Shown: positions 42,585 through 53,674 of the stretch, piece by piece
Layout of the letters: every line of letters starts with the position of its first letter
Position numbering within the stretch: position 1 is the first letter of the stretch
NCBI RefSeq assembly: GCF_000826685.1
Contig: NZ_JROO01000011.1
Location: 1-64,000 of the forward strand
Source: Streptomonospora alba
Lineage (GTDB): Bacteria > Actinomycetota > Actinomycetes > Streptosporangiales > Streptosporangiaceae
Direction: 5' to 3'
Length of the DNA: 64,000 bases
The notes under the pieces: generated by a model
Told to the model about the DNA's origin: nothing
Seen by the model: only the letters and a program-made list of their open reading frames with translations
Databases searched by the model: none
Made by a program: the position numbers and the translations under genes

Positions 42585-43352
42585 TCACCACAGCTCAGGG
42601 GCGCGCCCGCCGAGGCGCCGGGTCAGTTCGGCGGCCGCGTCGCGCGCGCCCGCGGCCAGCGCCGCCGCCGTCACCGGACGCGCACTGGGCACGGTCAGGC
42701 TGATGGCCGCGGCCGGCGCGGCGTTGTGGTCGAAGGCCGCCGCCGCGATCGAGGAGAACCCCTCGGTGACCTGCCCCTCCTCGACCGCGTAGCCCGCGCG
42801 GCGCTCGTCGGCCAACACCCCGCGCAGTTCGGCGGGTCCCGAGGGGCCGTGCCCGGTGCGGTCCACGAACGCCGCCGCTGCGGGATACAGCGCACGTACC
42901 TGGGCGCGGGGCAGATGCGCCAGCAGAGCGCGCCCCGAAGCCGTCAGGTGGGCCGGCAGCCGCACACCCACCCCGGTGATGAGGGTGGGTGCATGCGGCG
43001 GCTGCTCCTTGAGCAGGTACAGCGTGTCCGGGCCGTGCAGGATCCCCAGGTGCGCTGTCGCCCCCGTCTCCTCGACGAGCCGCCGCAGCAGGGGCCGGGC
43101 CAACCGCTCCAGGGGGCCGTGGCGCAGATAGGCCGATCCGATCTCGAAGGCCGCCACTCCCAGCCCCCATCGGCGCTCCTCGGGCAGGTGGGTGACGAAG
43201 CCTTCCTCGGCCATGGCTTCCAGTAGCTGGTAGACGCTCGACCGCGGCAGTTCGAGTTCGGCGGCCACCGCCGCCGCCGATACCGGCCCCGACCGCGTGG
43301 CCAGGAAGCGCAGCAGCCGCAGCGCCCGCGTGGCCGCCGGGACATGGCTCAT
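42585..43352 (-). CDS. IclR-family regulator beside the hut genes
   Basis: The 255-aa protein has an N-terminal winged helix (ALRLLRFLATRSGPVSAAAVAAELELPRSSVYQLLEAM) and an IclR effector domain from about 85. It reads away from the histidine-utilisation genes 1.7 kb to the right. IclR proteins often control catabolic genes, so regulation of hut is plausible but unproven. The 3' end is close to rbpA (convergent). Confidence 0.88.
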   Translation of the reverse strand: MSHVPAATRALRLLRFLATRSGPVSAAAVAAELELPRSSVYQLLEAMAEEGFVTHLPEERRWGLGVAAFEIGSAYLRHGPLERLARPLLRRLVEETGATAHLGILHGPDTLYLLKEQPPHAPTLITGVGVRLPAHLTASGRALLAHLPRAQVRALYPAAAAFVDRTGHGPSGPAELRGVLADERRAGYAVEEGQVTEGFSSIAAAAFDHNAAPAAAISLTVPSARPVTAAALAAGARDAAAELTRRLGGRAPELW

Positions 43353-43851: not shown

Positions 43852-43925
43852 GGCCCCAGTCTGGGCGAGGCTCTTTCTTCATGTCCATCTGAACTTTTTG
43901 CATGAAACCGTGTAGCGTGGACTAC

Positions 43926-44906
43926 ATGTTCGATCTCCGGCGGCTGCGCGTGCTGCGGGCGGTCCACCACCACGGAACCGTCACCGGCGCGGCCGAGGCG
44001 CTGCACCTGACCCCTTCGGCGGTCTCCCAGCAGATCCGCCAGCTCGCGCGCGATCTCGGCGTCACTCTGCTGGAACCGGAAGGCCGCCGGGTGCGGCTGA
44101 CCTCGGCGGCCCACGTGCTGCTGGACCACGCCGATGCGCTGAGCACCCGCTGGGAGCGGGCCGTGGCCGACCTCGCCCGCCACTCCGAAGGCGCCGCGGG
44201 TCCGCTGCGCATGGCCGGATACCCCACGGGCATCGCCACCCTGCTGGCGCCCGCCACCTCGCGGCTGCGCCGCACCCACCCCGAGCTGCAGACCTCGGTG
44301 CTGGAGGCCGAGACCGGCGAGTGCTTCGACATGCTGCTGGGCGGCAGCGCCGACATCGCCGTCTTCGTGCCCGACCCCTCCTACCCGCCGGCCGACGATC
44401 GCCGCTTCGACCAGCAGGTCCTGGTGGAGGACCCCCAGGACCTGCTGGTGCCGACCGACCACCCGCTGGCGACGCGCACCGGCGTCACGCTCGCCGACGC
44501 GGCACTGGAGGACTGGATCGCGGCCGACACCGCCTGCAACCACTCCTGGATGCTGCACGTGGCCTGCTCCGCCGCCGGATTCACCCCGCGCATCGCCCAC
44601 CGCGCCACCGACTGGGTCGGCGCCACCGCGCTGGTCGCCCACGGGCTGGGGGCGGCCCTCGTGCCCCGGCTGCTGCCCGTCGCCGCCGAGTACCCCGTGG
44701 CCCGGGTGCGGCTGCACGGCAGACCTCAGCCCTCGCGGTCGATCCTCACCGCCGTGCGCAGCGGAAGCGGCGACCACCCGGCCGTCGCGCACGGGCTCGC
44801 GGCGCTCGCCGAGACCGCCGCCCGGGCGGCCGCGGATCCCGGCCCGCAGGAGGTCCACGCCCGCGTGCGCGGCCCCGCCGAAGGGGTCGGCGCCGCCGCT
44901 CGCTGA
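43926..44906 (+). CDS. LysR-family regulator
   Basis: The 326-aa protein has an N-terminal helix-turn-helix (FDLRRLRVLRAVHHHGTVTGAAEALHLTPSAVSQQIRQLARD) and a periplasmic-binding-like effector domain (about 90-300). The tail is Ala/Gly/Pro rich. The start is ATG 43926, and another ATG at 43902 adds 8 residues. It is directly upstream and co-directional with hutH, 121 nt away, so is a candidate regulator of the histidine operon. Confidence 0.9.
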   Translation: MFDLRRLRVLRAVHHHGTVTGAAEALHLTPSAVSQQIRQLARDLGVTLLEPEGRRVRLTSAAHVLLDHADALSTRWERAVADLARHSEGAAGPLRMAGYPTGIATLLAPATSRLRRTHPELQTSVLEAETGECFDMLLGGSADIAVFVPDPSYPPADDRRFDQQVLVEDPQDLLVPTDHPLATRTGVTLADAALEDWIAADTACNHSWMLHVACSAAGFTPRIAHRATDWVGATALVAHGLGAALVPRLLPVAAEYPVARVRLHGRPQPSRSILTAVRSGSGDHPAVAHGLAALAETAARAAADPGPQEVHARVRGPAEGVGAAAR

Positions 44907-45027
44907 GGCGGCCCGGGACGGTCCCTCCCCGCCCGAGACCGCCGGTCGCCGTTCCGTCTGAAATCTCGGACACGATGTGGGCGCGGGGGCTCGCACACCA
45001 GGGCGCCGGCCGCGTCCAATGGGGGCC

Positions 45028-46566
45028 ATGCCCACCTCGATCCACATCGGCCCCGCGGGGCCCTCTCCCGAGGACGTCGTCGCCGTGGCCCGCCGCGGCG
45101 CCGCGGTCCGCCTGACGCCCGAGGCGCGCGCCGCCGTGGCCGCGGGACGCAAGCGCGTCGACGCCCTGGCCGCCGACCCCGCCCCCGCATACGGCGTCAG
45201 TACCGGGTTCGGCGCGCTCGCGACGCGGCACATCGCCCCCGACCTGCGCACCCGGCTGCAGGCCTCCCTCGTCCGATCCCACGCCGCCGGTACCGGAGAC
45301 GAGGTCGAGCGCGAGGTGGTGCGCGCGCTGATGCTGCTGCGGCTGCGCACCCTGGCCGGGGGCGGTACCGGCGTGCGCGTCGAGACCGCCGAGGCGCTGG
45401 CCGGACTGCTCAACGCCGGCATCACACCCGTCGTCCACGAGTACGGAAGCCTGGGCTGCTCGGGCGATCTCGCCCCGCTGTCCCACGTCGCTCTGGCGCT
45501 GATGGGCGAGGGCACGGTTCGCGACGCGGACGGGGAGCTGCGCGAGGCGGCCGAGGCGCTGCACGAAGCGAGCCTGGAGCCGGTGGAACTGGCCGCCAAG
45601 GAGGGCCTCGCGCTGATCAACGGCACCGACGGCATGCTCGGCATGCTGCTGCTGGCCTGCGCCGACGTGGCAGAGCTGCTGCGTGTCGCCGACATCACCG
45701 CGGCCATGAGTGTCGAGGCCCTGCTGGGCACCGACCGGGTCTTCGCCGCCGATCTGCAAGAACTGCGCCCCCACCCCGGGCAGGCGGCAGCGGCGGCCAA
45801 CATGCGCGCCCTGCTGGCCGACTCGCCGGTGGTGGCCTCCCACCGCGGTCCCGACTGCACCCGCGTGCAGGACGCCTACTCGCTGCGCTGCGCGCCCCAG
45901 GTCGCCGGCGCCGTACGCGACACCCTCGCCCACGCCGAGGCCGTCGCCCACCGCGAACTGGCCGCCGTCATCGACAACCCGGTGGTCCTGGAAGACGGCC
46001 GAGTCGAGTCCAACGGCAACTTCCACGGTGCGCCCGTGGGCTATGTGCTCGACTTCCTGGCCATCGCGGTCGCCGATCTGGCCTCCATCGCCGAGCGCCG
46101 CACCGACCGCATGCTCGACGTCGCCCGCTCCCACGGGCTGCCCGCCTTCCTCGCCGACGACCCCGGCGTGGACTCCGGCCACATGATCGCCCAGTACACC
46201 CAGGCGGCGCTGGTCTCCGAGCTCAAGCGGATGGCCGCCCCCGCCAGCGTCGACTCCATCCCCAGCTCGGCCATGCAGGAGGACCACGTCTCGATGGGCT
46301 GGTCCGCCGCGCGCAAGCTGCGCCGCTGCGTCGATGCGCTCACCAGCGTGCTGGCGGTCGAGCTGATCACGGCGGCCCGTGCGCTGGACCTGCGCGCGCC
46401 CCTGGAACCCGCGCCGGCCACCGCGGCCGTACGCGACATGCTGCGCACCCGCGTACCCGGCCCCGGCCCCGACCGCCACCTGGCGCCCGAGATCGCCGCC
46501 GCGGCCCGACTCATCTCCGACGGTTCCGTCCGCGCCGCCGCAGACTCCGTCACCCCGCTCGCCTGA
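45028..46566 (+). CDS. hutH: Histidine ammonia-lyase
   Basis: The 512-aa enzyme converts L-histidine to trans-urocanate and ammonia. The MIO prosthetic group forms from an ASG-type tripeptide; here it is C144-S145-G146 in [16 protein letters not shown]. Cys at the first position is tolerated since the prosthetic group only needs the backbone. Other landmarks: [34 protein letters not shown], and [18 protein letters not shown]. An upstream in-frame ATG at 44977 is unlikely. First gene of hutH-hutU-M20-hutF-hutI. Confidence 0.96.
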
Positions 46567-46585: not shown

Positions 46586-48262
46586 ATGACCACGGGAACC
46601 GGCTCCGCGCCGCGGAAGGTGCGCGCCCCGCGCGGCACCGTCCGCTCCGCCAAGGGGTGGCCGCAGGAGGCCGCCCTGCGCATGCTGCACAACAACCTCG
46701 ACCCCGAGGTCGCCGAGCACCCCGACCGGCTCGTCGTCTACGGCGGAAGCGGCAGGGCCGCCCGCGACTGGGCGAGTTTCGACCGCATCACCGCCGTGCT
46801 GCGGGAGCTGGGCGACGACGAGACGCTGCTCGTGCAGTCCGGCCGCCCTGTGGGGGTGCTGCCGACCCACGAGTGGGCGCCGCGTGTGCTCATCGCCAAC
46901 GCCAACCTCGTCGGCGACTGGTCGAACTGGGAGGAGTTCCGCCGCCTGGAGGCGCTGGGTCTGACCATGTACGGGCAGATGACCGCCGGGTCGTGGATCT
47001 ACATCGGCACTCAGGGCATTCTTCAGGGCACCTACGAGACCTTCGGCGCGGTGGCCGCCAAGCGCTTCGGCGGCAGCCTGGCCGGCACGCTCACCCTCAC
47101 CGCCGGGCTGGGCGGCATGGGCGGCGCCCAGCCGCTGGCGGTGACCATGAACGGCGGGACGGCGCTGGTCCTCGAGTGCGACGCCACCCGTATCGAACGC
47201 CGCATCGCCCAGGGCTACCTCGACGTCCGCGCCGACAGCCTCGACGACGCCCTGCGCCGGGCGGAGCAGGCGCGCCGCGAGCGGCGCGCGGTCTCCATCG
47301 GCGTCCAGGCCAACGCCGCCGACGCCGTACCCGAACTGCTGCGCCGCGGTGCGCCGGTCGACGTCGTCACCGACCAGACCTCCGCCCACGACCCGCTCGC
47401 CTACCTGCCCAGCGGGGTGGACTTCGCCGACTGGGGCGACTACGCGACGCGCGCGCCAGAGGACTTCACCCGCCGTGCCCGCGAGTCCATGGCCGCCCAC
47501 GTCGAGGCGATGGTCGGATTCGCCGACGCCGGCGCCGAGGTCTTCGACTACGGAAACGCGATCCGCGGAGAGGCGCGCACCGCCGGCTACGCGCGCGCCT
47601 TCGACTTCCCCGGATTCGTGCCCGCTTACATCCGCCCCCTGTTCTGCCAGGGCAAAGGACCCTTCCGCTGGGCCGCGCTCTCCGGCGACCCCGCCGACAT
47701 CGCCCGTACCGACCGGGCCGTGCTGGAGTTGTTCGGAGACGACGACCACCTGGCCCGCTGGATCCGCATGGCCGGCGAGCGGATCTCCTACCAGGGCCTC
47801 CCGGCGCGGATCTGCTGGCTGGGCCAGGGCGAGCGCGCCGCCGCCGGCCAGCGGTTCAACGAGCTCGTGGCCTCCGGCGAGATCAGCGCGCCACTGGCCA
47901 TCGGCCGCGACCACCTCGACACCGGCTCCGTGGCCTCGCCCTACCGCGAGACCGAGTCCATGGCCGACGGTTCCGACGCCATCGCCGACTGGCCGCTGCT
48001 CAACGCTCTGGTCAACACCGCCTCGGGCGCATCCTGGGTGTCGATCCACCACGGCGGCGGTGTCGGAATCGGCCGCTCCCTGCACGCCGGCCAGGTCAGC
48101 GTCGCCGACGGCAGCGACCTGGCCGCGCGCAAGCTGCACCGGGTACTCGCCAACGACCCCGCCACGGGAGTGATCCGCCACGCCGACGCCGGGTATGGCC
48201 AGGCCGAAGAGACCGCCGAACAGCACGGCATCCGCCTGCCCATGCGCGAGGGGCGGGATTAG
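46586..48262 (+). CDS. hutU: Urocanate hydratase
   Basis: The 558-aa enzyme hydrates urocanate to 4-imidazolone-5-propionate using tightly bound NAD+. Diagnostic segments are [37 protein letters not shown] (NAD-binding), the catalytic-region [19 protein letters not shown] with the active cysteine, and [27 protein letters not shown] precedes ATG 46586. It is 19 nt after hutH. Confidence 0.97.
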
Positions 48263-48316: not shown

Positions 48317-49552
48317 ATGAACGACGACTTCGAGGAGCTGTGGGACGGCCTGGCTCCGCTGGGGCGCAACCGTGCCACCGGCGGCTATCGCAGGTACTCC
48401 TGGGGCCCGGCCGACACCGAGGCGCGTGCCTGGTTCACCTCGGCGGCCCGCGCCCGGGGGCTCGGGGTCGAGACCGACCGCAACGGCAACCTGTGGGCAT
48501 GGTGGGGAGAGCCCGGTCCCGACGCCGTGGTCACCGGCTCCCACCTGGACTCGGTGCCCGACGGCGGTGCCTACGACGGGCCGCTGGGCGTCGTCGGCGG
48601 CCTGGCCGCGATCGACGAGCTCCGCCGGCGCGGGCTGCGCCCCCGGCGCCCCGTCGCGGTGGCGGTGTTCGTCGAGGAGGAGGGCGCCCGCTTCGGCGTC
48701 CCCTGCCTGGGCAGTCGGCTGCTGACCGGGGCGATCGCTCCGGAGCGTGCGTGTGCCCTCACCGACGCCGACGGTGTGACCTGGTCGCGGGCGATGGAGG
48801 GGGCCGGGCTCGACCCCGAGCGCATGGGCGCCGACCACGAGCTCATCGGCCGCATCGGCGCGTTCGTCGAACTGCACATCGAGCAGGGGCGGTCGCTGGC
48901 GTGCACCGGCGACCCCGTCGGCGCGGCTTCGGCGGTGTGGCCGCACGGGCGGTGGCGGTTGGACTTCGCCGGTCAGGCCGACCACGCCGGGACCACCCGG
49001 CTGGTCGACCGCAGGGACCCCATGCTGCCCTTCGCCGCGGCCGTGCAGGAGGCGCGGCGGGCGGCCGAGGAGCACGATGCCCTGGCCACCGTGGGCAAGG
49101 TGCGGGTCTCGCCCAACGGCACCAACGCGGTGCCCTCCCGGGTGCGCGCCTGGCTGGATGCGCGCGCGGCCGACGAGGCGGCCCTGCGCGCGGTCGTCGA
49201 CCGGGTCGACACCGCCGCGCGGGGCAGCGCCGCCGACCACGGAGTCGCCGTGACCGCCTACCTGGAATCCACGTCGCCGCTCGTGGAGTTCGACCACCGC
49301 CTGCGCGACCGCATCGCCGAGCGCGCGGGAGGAGGGTCGGGCGCCGTTCCGCTGCTGACCACCGGCGCCGGCCACGACGCCGGCGTGCTGGCCAACACCG
49401 TGCCCACCGCCATGCTGTTCGTGCGCAACCCCACCGGCGTCTCGCACGCCCCCGGGGAGTCGGCCACCGCCGCCGACTGCCGGGCCGGAATCACCGCCTT
49501 GGCCGACGTGCTGGCCGACCTGGCCGACGCCGCGCCGCCGGAGCAGGCATGA
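48317..49552 (+). CDS. M20 amidohydrolase, candidate N-formylglutamate hydrolase
   Basis: The 411-aa protein belongs to the M20/hydantoinase-carbamoylase group. VVTGSHLDSVPDGGAYDGPLGVVG supplies metal ligands, FVEEEGARFG the catalytic Glu pair, HIEQGRSLA, and HAPGESA a late metal His. Homologues are named allantoate amidohydrolases or N-carbamoyl-amino-acid hydrolases. It sits between hutU and hutF with its TGA in the hutF ATG (ATGA), so the genes are coupled. HutF yields N-formylglutamate and no hutG is here; I infer this enzyme hydrolyses it. Start ATG 48317 has GGAG upstream; a GTG at 48266 is possible. Confidence 0.85.
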   Translation: MNDDFEELWDGLAPLGRNRATGGYRRYSWGPADTEARAWFTSAARARGLGVETDRNGNLWAWWGEPGPDAVVTGSHLDSVPDGGAYDGPLGVVGGLAAIDELRRRGLRPRRPVAVAVFVEEEGARFGVPCLGSRLLTGAIAPERACALTDADGVTWSRAMEGAGLDPERMGADHELIGRIGAFVELHIEQGRSLACTGDPVGAASAVWPHGRWRLDFAGQADHAGTTRLVDRRDPMLPFAAAVQEARRAAEEHDALATVGKVRVSPNGTNAVPSRVRAWLDARAADEAALRAVVDRVDTAARGSAADHGVAVTAYLESTSPLVEFDHRLRDRIAERAGGGSGAVPLLTTGAGHDAGVLANTVPTAMLFVRNPTGVSHAPGESATAADCRAGITALADVLADLADAAPPEQA

Positions 49553-51051
49553 GCGCGACGCCGCCGGGCCCGTCCCCGGACGGGGGTGCCCGAGGGGAGG
49601 CGGTCGCGAGCGCGCGCGCAGCCGAGGCGGTAGGCGAGGAGGCGGGCGCGGTGCGGCCGGGACGCAGCGAGCGGTACTGGTGCGAGTGGGCGCTGCTGGA
49701 CGCCGGGGCCGGAGCAGCGGCGGCGCCGGGGGTCCTCGTCGAGGTCGACGGCGGCGCGATCACCTCCGTCACCCGCGACACGCGTCCCCCAGACGGCGCC
49801 GAGCGGCTGGGCGGGCTGACCGTCGCGGGGTTCGCCGACGCGCACTCCCACGCCTTCCACCGCGCGCTGCGGGGGCGCACCGGCGAGGACGGCGGCAGCT
49901 TCTGGACCTGGCGCAGCCGGATGTACGAGGCCGCCGGACGCCTGGACCCCGACTCCTACCACCGCCTCGCCCGCGCCGTCTACGCCGAGATGGCGCTGGC
50001 CGGGATCACCTGCGTGGGGGAGTTCCACTACCTGCACCACGCGCCCGGCGGCACCCGTTACAACGATCCCAACGCCATGGGGCGCGCTCTGATCGCGGCC
50101 GCGGCCGACGCCGGCGTGCGCATCACCCTGCTCGACACCTGCTACCTCGCCGGCGGCCTGGACGCCCGCAGCGGGTACACGCCGCTGGAGGGGCCCCAGC
50201 TGCGCTTCGGCGACGCAAGCGCCGACGCCTGGGCCGAGCGCGTCGCCGCCCTGCGGCCCGCCGCCGACCACGCCCGCATCGGGGTCGCCGCGCATTCGGT
50301 ACGTGCGGTCCCGCCCGCCGACCTCGCCCGCATCGCCCGAGCCGCGCCCGAGGCCGGATGGGCCGCCGCGCACATCCACGCCTCCGAACAGCCGGCCGAG
50401 AACACCGCCTGCATCGCCGCCCACGGGCGCACCCCCGTCCGCCTCCTGGACGACACCGGCTTTCTGACGGCGCTGCGGCCCACCCTCGTCCACGCCACCC
50501 ATCTCACCCGCGCCGACGCCTCCCTCGTGCGCGGCACCGGCGCCGGCGTGTGCCTGTGCCCCACCACCGAGGGCGATCTCGCCGACGGCCTGCCCGACCT
50601 GGGACGCCTGGCCGGCGCACCGCTGTCGCTGGGCACCGACGGCCACACCGGCATCGACATGTTCGCCGAGGCCCGCGGCGCCGAGATCCACGAGCGCCTG
50701 CGCACCGGCCGCCGCGGCACACTGCCCGCCCACGGTCTGCTGGAGGCCGCGCTCGCCGGCGGCCACGCGGCGCTCGGCTGGGAGCCCGACGCCGAGCCCG
50801 GCGGCGAGGGAGGCGCGGGGCGCATCGCCGCGGGAGCCCGGGCCGACCTGGTCACCGTCGCCCTCGACGGCGTCCGCATGGCCGGCTTCGAGGGCGACCG
50901 CGCCGCCGACGCGCTCGTGTGGGCCGCGACCGCCGCCGACGTCCGCCACGTCATGGCCGACGGGCGCTGGATCGTGCGCGACGGCGTGCACACCGCGATC
51001 CCCGACGCCGCCGCCCGGCTCCACGCCGCGATCACGGAGCTCACCCGGTGA
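49549..51051 (+). CDS. hutF: Formiminoglutamate deiminase
   Basis: The 500-aa amidohydrolase removes ammonia from N-formimino-L-glutamate to give N-formyl-L-glutamate. [12 protein letters not shown] supplies the first metal His pair, [20 protein letters not shown] and LVHATHLT give others, and [10 protein letters not shown] has the catalytic Asp. The first 45 residues (before RYWCEWALL) are low-complexity. The ATG at 49549 overlaps the M20 stop. The reading frame stays open for 2.9 kb upstream on hutU's shadow, which is not coding. Confidence 0.92.
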
Positions 51052-51163: not shown

Positions 51164-52396
51164 ATGAACACCCCCGATCCAGCCCCCGCCGTGCCCGCCG
51201 TCTCGTCGGTGCTGGTGGACGGCGTCGCCCACCTCGTCACCAACGACCCCGCCCTCGGGCCCGGCCCGCTGGGCGAGGTGCCCGACGCCGCCGTGGTCGT
51301 CGAGGCGGGCCGTGTGGCCTGGTGCGGGCCGCGAACCCGGGCACCGGCCGCCGACGTGCGCGTGGACGCCGCCGGTCGCTGCCTCATCCCGGGCTTCGTC
51401 GACAGCCACTCCCACGTCGTCTTCGCGGGCGACCGCAGCCGGGAGTTCGGCGACCGGATGAGCGGTCGGCCCTATGAGGCCGGCGGCATCCGCACCACCG
51501 TCGCCGCGACCCGTGCGGCCTCCGACACCGACCTGCTGGGCACCGCCACCCGCCTGCTGCGCGAGGCCCGCGCCCAAGGGACCACCACCCTGGAGATCAA
51601 GTCCGGCTACGGGCTGAGTACCGCCGATGAACAGCGCTGCCTGCGCGCGGCCGCACGGCTGACCGACGAGACGACGTTCCTGGGCGCTCACGTGGTCCCG
51701 CCCGAGTACGACGGCGACACCGACGGCTACGTGGATCTGGTCACCGGCGGGATGCTGGAGGCCTGTGCGCCCCACGCCCGCTGGATCGACGTGTTCTGCG
51801 AACGCGGCGCCTTCGACGAGCACCAGGCGCGCCGCGTCCTGCGAGCGGGGCGCGACCGCGGACTGATGCCGCGCGTGCACGGAAACCAGCTCGGTCCCGG
51901 CCCCGGTGTGCGCCTGGCGGTGGCGGAAGGCGCGGCGTCGGTGGACCACTGCACCCACCTGAGCGACGACGACGTCGCGGCGCTGGCCGGCTCCGCGTCC
52001 GGCGGGGGACCGGCGACGGTGGCCACGCTGCTGCCGGGCGTCGACTTCTCCACCCGCCAGCCCTACCCCGACGCCCGCGCCCTGCTCGACGCCGGCGCCC
52101 CCGTCGCCCTGGCCACCGACTGCAACCCCGGATCGTGCTTCACCTCCAGCATGGCGCTGTGCATCGCACTGGCGGTACGCGAGATGCGGATGAGCCCGGA
52201 GGAGGCGCTTCGGGCGGCCACAGCGGGCGGTGCCGCCGCGCTGCGCCGCGACGACGTAGGCCACCTCGCGGTGGGCGCTCGCGCCGACATGGTGCTGCTG
52301 GAGGCGCCCAATCCCGTCTATCTGGCCTACCGCCCCGGCGTGCCGCAGGTCGCGGCGGTGTGGAAGGACGGTGAACTCGTCGCCGGGCGGCCCTGA
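51164..52396 (+). CDS. hutI: Imidazolonepropionase
   Basis: The 410-aa amidohydrolase opens 4-imidazolone-5-propionate to N-formimino-L-glutamate. Metal site [14 protein letters not shown], substrate loop [19 protein letters not shown], later metal His in [11 protein letters not shown], catalytic ATDCNPGSC. It starts ATG 51164, 112 nt after hutF, and closes the pathway gene set. Confidence 0.95.
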
Positions 52397-52579: not shown

Positions 52580-53674
52580 ATGAGCCTGTGGCGCATCCGC
52601 ACCGTCGTCGAAGACCGTCCCGGCCGACTCGCCGCCGTGGTCGGCGCCATGGCGGCCCACGGCGGCGACGTCGTCGGGCTGTCGATCCACGCCGACGCCG
52701 CCGGCGTGGTGGACGAGTTCCTCGTCGACGTTCCGGGGGAGCACCGCACTCTGCTGCGCGAGGTCGCCCAGCGCAGCGTCACCGAGTCGGTCGACGCCGT
52801 CCCCGCACAGCCGCGCGAGGTCGGCGACGACGTCACCAAGGCGCTTCTGCTCACCGCCCGGCTGCGCAGCGCGCCCAACCGGCTGCCCGAGGCGCTGGGT
52901 GAGCTGCTGATGGCCGATGACGCTCGCTGGACCAATCTCACCCGCCCGGTGCCGGAGTTCCCCGAGGAGCCGGAGACGACCCTGGTGGTGCCCGCCGGTC
53001 CGCTGCGCGGCGTCCGGCTGCGCCGCCCGGACCGGCCCTTCACGTGGACCGAGTCCGCACGCGCCGACGCCCTGGTGCGCTCGATACTGCCGCCCACCGG
53101 GCCGGTTCCGACCGACGGCACGGTCTCCACCGGCGGCGGAGCCCGCCTCGACGTGCGCCAGGCCTGCCCGGAGGACGCCGAGGCCATCCAGCGCCTGCAC
53201 GCCCGCTGCTCGCCCGAGACGACGCGCGGCCGGTACTTCTCCAGCCTGCGGCGGCTGCCCCCGGGCATGCTGGGGGCGTTCTGCGACCCCGAGCACGGGC
53301 TGACGCTGCTCGCGCGGCCGGAAGAGGGCGGCGAGCCGATCGCGCTGGCGCACCTGATGTACACGCTCGACCCGGGCGTGGGCGAGGTGGCCTTCCTGGT
53401 CGAGGACACCTGGCAGCAGCGGGGAGTGGGCACCGCGCTCGCCCGTACGCTGACCGCCGTCGCCGCCGACTGGGGCCTGGCCGAAGTCCGCGCCGAGACG
53501 GTGACCGGCAACCGGGCGATGCAGCGCATCATGCGGCGTATGGGCGCGGAGATCCGCCCGCCGCGCCACGGTGTGGTGCAGGCCCGCCTCCCGGTGGCCG
53601 GCGCCGTCCCGGCCCCGCGCGGCGGCCGACTGGCCGAGCTGATGAGCCGGCCGGGAGCCCCCGGGGCGGCCTGA
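52580..53674 (+). CDS. ACT-domain plus GNAT acetyltransferase protein
   Basis: The 364-aa protein has an N-terminal ACT-like domain (WRIRTVVEDRPGRLAAVVGAMAAHGGDVVGLSIHADA) that could bind an amino acid, and a C-terminal GNAT domain (RQACPEDAEAIQRLHARC, VAFLVEDTWQQRGVGTALARTL, NRAMQRIMRRMG) binding acetyl-CoA. ACT-GNAT fusions are known in actinobacteria as allosterically controlled lysine acetyltransferases. Its position 183 nt after hutI suggests, but does not prove, a link to amino-acid signalling. ATG 52580 has GGGGGACAGC upstream. Confidence 0.85.
   Translation: MSLWRIRTVVEDRPGRLAAVVGAMAAHGGDVVGLSIHADAAGVVDEFLVDVPGEHRTLLREVAQRSVTESVDAVPAQPREVGDDVTKALLLTARLRSAPNRLPEALGELLMADDARWTNLTRPVPEFPEEPETTLVVPAGPLRGVRLRRPDRPFTWTESARADALVRSILPPTGPVPTDGTVSTGGGARLDVRQACPEDAEAIQRLHARCSPETTRGRYFSSLRRLPPGMLGAFCDPEHGLTLLARPEEGGEPIALAHLMYTLDPGVGEVAFLVEDTWQQRGVGTALARTLTAVAADWGLAEVRAETVTGNRAMQRIMRRMGAEIRPPRHGVVQARLPVAGAVPAPRGGRLAELMSRPGAPGAA

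Follow-up and report, generated by a model that had tools for sequence, protein, structure and literature searches.

Hut-linked M20 amidohydrolases as candidate replacements for the HutG N-formylglutamate deformylase in Streptomonospora alba and other Actinomycetota

Introduction

In the five-step hut pathway of histidine degradation, the step after HutF, i.e., deformylation of N-formylglutamate, belongs to HutG (PF05013, TIGR02017). An alternative form of this deformylase was predicted by Gerdes et al. in 2011 (PMC3223725, Table 3, case 20, COG0624/At5g43600) from SEED-based comparative genomics of histidine degradation. According to the available part of that paper, deformylase activity was not detected in one Streptomyces avermitilis protein, and the case was placed under invalidated predictions. 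The assignment considered here, i.e., that an M20-family amidohydrolase takes the place of HutG in the hut operon of Streptomonospora alba, is the same one, so that the substrate proposed in the original prediction for this operon is a rediscovery of the 2011 prediction rather than an original assignment. The new evidence is the mutual exclusion of the M20 gene and a peptide-deformylase-like gene at hutF loci; the latter alternative, which does not appear in the available part of the 2011 paper, is added by the present survey.

The L-N-carbamoylases of Geobacillus (3n5f) and Sinorhizobium (8apz) share the fold of the M20 protein. A review (PMC7431475, available in part) describes N-formyl amino acids as being used more efficiently than N-carbamoyl ones by the Geobacillus stearothermophilus enzyme, and deformylation chemistry is therefore within reach of the M20 family. 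The argument that N-carbamoyl and ureido bonds are chemically close to an N-formyl group thus gained a precedent from a related enzyme, although by itself it cannot separate formyl from carbamoyl substrates. The same review mentions cobalt added in one preparative reaction, and metal loading may therefore matter for the negative assay of the S. avermitilis protein. In the literature searched, no paper joined N-formylglutamate with allantoate amidohydrolase and histidine; in the available part of a report on a Paracoccus plasmid (PMC4447125), hutG is of the ordinary kind and an allantoate amidohydrolase is separate from it.

The hut operon of Streptomonospora alba

The window analyzed (64,000 nucleotides, positions 1 to 64,000 of contig NZ_JROO01000011.1) contained hutH (histidine ammonia-lyase, 45028–46566), hutU (urocanate hydratase, 46586–48262), the M20 gene (48317–49552), hutF (formimidoylglutamate deiminase, 49549–51051) and hutI (imidazolonepropionase, 51164–52396), in this order and all on the + strand. 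Each of the four hut genes scored above an NCBIfam cut-off (hutH, 701 bits for NF006871 and 654 bits for TIGR01225; hutU, 876 bits for TIGR01228; hutF, 552 bits for NF006681; hutI, 360 bits for TIGR01224), and hutF was barely over that of TIGR02022 (413.8 bits, cut-off 413.05). The M20 gene was intact, with a GGAG motif upstream of an ATG at 48317, 411 codons and a TGA at 49550–49552. Its stop shared four bases (ATGA) with the start of hutF at 49549, as the original prediction had it, and the reported absence of hutG from the operon was borne out as well; PF05013 was without a match in the entire assembly (5.91 Mb, 110 contigs, 97.5% complete), in a search that was positive in the Caulobacter control.

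The closest M20 protein among named records, from Streptomonospora sp. PA3, was 81% identical. Among 14 public loci chosen by protein similarity alone, the M20 gene was near hutF in 13, the exception (L141) being a contig that ends at the M20 gene. These loci, together with the hut-neighborhood M20 genes of 43 of the 62 hutF genomes described below, indicate that the position of M20 beside hutF is not a chance arrangement.

Family, structure and conserved residues of the M20 protein

The M20 protein was a member of the M20 hydantoinase/carbamoylase family TIGR01879 (290.2 bits, cut-off 204). Its Pfam matches were Peptidase_M20 (76 bits) and Peptidase_M28 only, and the FGase domain (PF05013) was absent; the protein thus resembles HutG in proposed reaction and in its place after HutF but belongs to a different family. 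An AlphaFold2 model (mean pLDDT 89.9) aligned with L-carbamoylase 8apz (Z 48.2, rmsd 2.4 over 401 residues), E. coli AllC 4pxd (Z 47.0) and plant ureidoglycolate amidohydrolase 4pxb (Z 46.1), near-equal scores for a predicted structure that do not pick out a substrate. In sequence, 3n5f was the top PDB match at 34% identity, the hut M20 proteins forming a clade separate from it, while AllC (1z2l, 4pxd) and the plant enzyme, with the same fold and catalytic residues, were 30–31% identical. AllC also differs in setting, its gene adjoining allB, allD and allE in the allantoin region whereas the M20 gene sits in hut.

Residues H76, D78, D87, E121, E122, H187, H223 and H377 were kept in all 50 main-clade sequences treated as hut-type, and R283 in 49 of the 50. 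H76, D87, E121, E122, H187, H377, H223 and R283, which we take to be the dinuclear metal ligands, the catalytic Glu, the dimer-domain His and the substrate Arg, were also present in 3n5f and AllC, so that the metal ligands are common to the M20 protein and the L-N-carbamoylase. What sets the M20 protein apart from the latter is its hut operon context and residues H210, D231, N371, P372 and T373, which were conserved in the hut M20 clade and rare among 20 other M20 proteins. R212 was common to AllC. Our guess is that some of the former five residues, or R212, may hold the side-chain carboxylate of glutamate.

Distribution of M20 genes among hut clusters

Hut neighborhoods were fetched from a sample of 298 genomes of the phylum and screened for hut genes, M20, peptide deformylase, arginase-family genes and FtcD, hutF being called in the fetched loci at a tblastn score above 150 against the HutF of this operon. 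Ten genomes were counted as without hutF despite similarity to it. Six of them, all of one family, had weak HutF-like proteins of 197–218 bits (G001, G030, G040, G062, G090 and G107); the other four (G096, G143, G217 and G273) had partial matches scoring about 250 bits. Removal of a genome that had no hutU (G166) reduced the set without hutF from 47 to 46. Some fetched stretches were short (3.4 kb for L021), which makes absences less sure than presences.

Sixty-two genomes carried hutF. Their hut neighborhoods contained an M20 gene in 43 cases (13 families, 21 genera), a peptide-deformylase-like gene in 11 (5 families, 7 genera), neither in eight and both in none, i.e., one or the other in 54 of 62. 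Two of the eight with neither (G102 and G154) were at contig edges. Among the 43 hut-linked M20 proteins, 36 were over the cut-off of NCBIfam model NF006770, one was cut by a contig end and six were of another subfamily (family f20). By comparison, the 46 hutU genomes without hutF had an M20 gene in one case (G127, where the contig ends just past hutU) and the hut-type deformylase in none. An arginase-family gene was present in the fetched stretch of 18 of these 46 genomes and FtcD in eight, and none of those contained either candidate. Arginase-family proteins and FtcD represent the other two known routes of histidine degradation. Fisher's test, run with 47 instead of 46 genomes without hutF, gave a value of 3e-21; kinship was ignored, so that significance is overstated. 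Across the phylum, M20 was associated with hutF but not with hut clusters from which hutF is missing.

The same was evident from two genomes (G026 and G076) in which an M20-hutF pair lay well inside a contig other than that of hutU and hutI, so that M20 goes with hutF. One of them, G026, was mixed in that FtcD was found beside hutU, and in another mixed genome, G144, an arginase-family gene adjoined hutU while hutF was elsewhere and without M20. Within a single family of 14 genomes (that of G085), hutF was present in six; M20 was next to hutF in five of these and the deformylase only in the sixth, and the other eight genomes had neither. Four of these genomes (G009, G045, G066 and G085) also belong to the set of 62. 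In a search of plasmids, M20 was found in two records, one from Arthrobacter and one from Nonomuraea, the latter being a hut locus (L206).

Peptide-deformylase-like proteins in hut clusters

The deformylase-like protein was recognized as a conserved reading frame where M20 was missing, at 11 loci (L027, L029, L054, L055, L062, L073, L077, L080, L082, L086 and L098). The gene lay between hutU and hutF in nine of these, between hutF and hutI in L098 and after hutI in L055. All 11 proteins matched PF01327 (140–157 bits; nine also by hmmscan), kept the EGCLS and HExDH motifs and contained an RYPYKP insertion that was seen in none of 15 other deformylases from these genomes and G000. In the tree they grouped together with support of 94/94, slightly below the starred level. 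Since all 11 genomes encode one or more additional deformylases elsewhere, the housekeeping function need not fall to the hut copy. The hut protein is a candidate for a second kind of N-formylglutamate deformylase. Deformylases in 39 records from the plasmid search were all less than 60% identical to the hut type (best 41% among the matches listed), and no link of peptide deformylase to the hut pathway was found in the literature searched, which consisted mostly of openly accessible papers.

Phylogeny of hut-linked M20 proteins

A tree was built from 84 M20 proteins with 20 sample M20 proteins as the only outgroup; the AllC and plant ureidoglycolate amidohydrolase rows were long branches, and the protein cut at a contig edge (L115) was left out. 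The NF006770 group formed one clade (54 rows, support 100/97), of which 49 members were in hut neighborhoods, one (L141) was at a contig end and four were outside hut, namely those of G166, G193 and G291, which formed one subclade, as well as an additional M20 protein of G026. The hut M20 proteins of family f20 (L024, L030, L031, L033, L034, L035 and L051) formed a separate clade (seven rows, 100/100), with starred branches between it and the NF006770 clade. The M20-hut association therefore probably arose at least twice.

Outside hut, the clade M20 gene of G166 (L121) adjoined a type III glutamine synthetase gene and those of G193 and G291 (L122 and L123) adjoined FAD amine-oxidase-like genes, with a gene for 'tyramine oxidase subunit B' also nearby in L123. 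All three genomes were without hutF.

PF05013 proteins away from hut clusters

PF05013 was above cut-off in 31 of the 298 genomes, including 19 of the 62 with hutF, and was without such a match in the other 43 of the 62. It was found at the hut cluster in none of the 62, coordinates having been compared in the 19 that bear it. In family f3, a PF05013 protein occurred away from hut in 14 of 16 hutF genomes. As true HutG, these unlinked proteins were rejected; for 11 of them (nine of the 19 from hutF genomes and two from genomes that lack hutF), scores to the HutG model did not exceed 84 bits, the cut-off being 278.75, values that are somewhat low for the ten that were trimmed to the matched part before scoring. 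In one annotated neighborhood (L155), the PF05013 gene adjoined a monomeric isocitrate dehydrogenase gene. Six hutF loci without M20 or deformylase (L052, L018, L044, L116, L118 and L119) were in genomes without PF05013.

Probable role of the M20 protein

Judged by genome context, the M20 protein is likely to be the last enzyme of the hut pathway, hydrolyzing N-formyl-L-glutamate in place of the missing HutG, yet one published assay contradicts this role. The HutF product, N-formyl-L-glutamate, would be the substrate, and the protein would act as a dinuclear-metal amidohydrolase to release L-glutamate and formate. That deformylation is the job of the slot is suggested by the peptide deformylase paralogue that other lineages put there. 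The swap of a formyl-amide hydrolase with M20 where N-formylglutamate is made favors a deformylase over an enzyme for allantoate or carbamoylglutamate or one with an unrelated role. The original proposal of an M20 replacement for HutG gains from its hutF-specific linkage, the exclusion between M20 and the deformylase-like gene, the lack of PF05013 and the L-carbamoylase precedent, and loses by the negative result for S. avermitilis (PMC3223725, available in part) as well as by priority. Counted against a deformylase, besides that assay, were the unlinked PF05013 proteins of 19 of the 62 hutF genomes, which could carry out the step, the eight hutF genomes with neither candidate, the four clade members outside hut and the mixed genomes G026 and G144.

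More broadly, the balance of these comparisons leans toward a formylglutamate step that in Actinomycetota would be carried out by non-homologous, mutually replacing enzymes of the hut cluster, no match to classical HutG (PF05013) having been found at the cluster in the 62 hutF genomes sampled. One kind would be M20 proteins, with two or more separate recruitments; the other, a paralogue of peptide deformylase that carries the RYPYKP insertion, would have switched from protein N-termini to a free derivative of an amino acid.

An unlikely alternative is that the M20 protein serves histidine use on some other substrate near HutF (e.g., N-formiminoglutamate directly, or a side product) while an unlinked enzyme removes the formyl group. 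Such a division of labor would account for the negative assay, as given in the available part of PMC3223725, and for the unlinked PF05013 proteins; it fits poorly with the presence of a peptide deformylase paralogue in the cluster of 11 of 62 hutF genomes, none of them with M20, and with the lack of PF05013 in the S. alba genome itself.

The possibility that the protein is an N-carbamoyl-L-glutamate amidohydrolase, active in salvage of hydantoin-5-propionate (oxidized HutU product) or in ergothioneine breakdown, agrees with the chemistry of the family and with 287.9 bits for the ErtE model (NF058540, an equivalog for N-carbamyl-L-glutamate amidohydrolase). We regard it as quite improbable, since that score is well below the cut-off of 520 bits, the linkage is to hutF only whereas every hut cluster makes the HutU product, and a carbamoylase is not expected to be replaced by a deformylase.

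The automatic annotation as allantoate amidohydrolase derives from NF006770 (634.1 bits, cut-off 372), a model for the name of which no supporting test was found. The score for the AllC allantoate deiminase equivalog (TIGR03176) was 217.2 bits, below the cut-off of 597.75. Moreover, a single cluster on another contig holds uricase, HIU hydrolase, OHCU decarboxylase, a presumed allantoinase of the amidohydrolase type, and allantoicase, so the genome needs no allantoate amidohydrolase. With all but five of the 54 clade members in hut neighborhoods, activity on allantoate is very improbable; this reading was rejected, and the automatic name is probably wrong. Least credible of all is a chance neighbor of hutF without a role in histidine use, to which the four clade members outside hut might point and against which stands the M20 linkage across 43 genomes, representing 21 genera in 13 family-level groups.

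If the deformylase assignment is true, the missing final step of histidine use would be filled in many actinobacteria, the automatic name of genes called allantoate amidohydrolase would be corrected and a prediction dropped after one negative assay would be reopened. The hut deformylase would in turn represent an unusual recruitment of peptide deformylase for small-molecule catabolism.

Regulators and flanking genes

An IclR-family regulator gene (42585–43352, - strand), identified by profile matches and near hut in six of 15 related loci, is a candidate hutR of this operon. Using the HutR motif of Corynebacterium resistens (PMC8222616, available in part), a scan of the window gave three matches against 0.27 expected, two of which were the same site on both strands, i.e., a palindrome (GTCTGAAATCTCGGAC, 44956–44971) with three mismatches to the published motif, located 56 bases before hutH. 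Similar sites, with three to four mismatches and 27–105 bases before hutH, were present in five of eight loci with hutH in view (L131, L134, L135, L136 and L139) and absent upstream of hutH in the other three (L132, L137 and L142). Directly upstream of hutH was a gene for a LysR-family regulator (43902–44906, + strand), found in one of the 15 related loci (L135). Just after hutI, a gene for a protein with ACT and GNAT acetyltransferase domains (52580–53674, + strand) was shared, among the same 15 loci, with that of Streptomonospora (L135) only.
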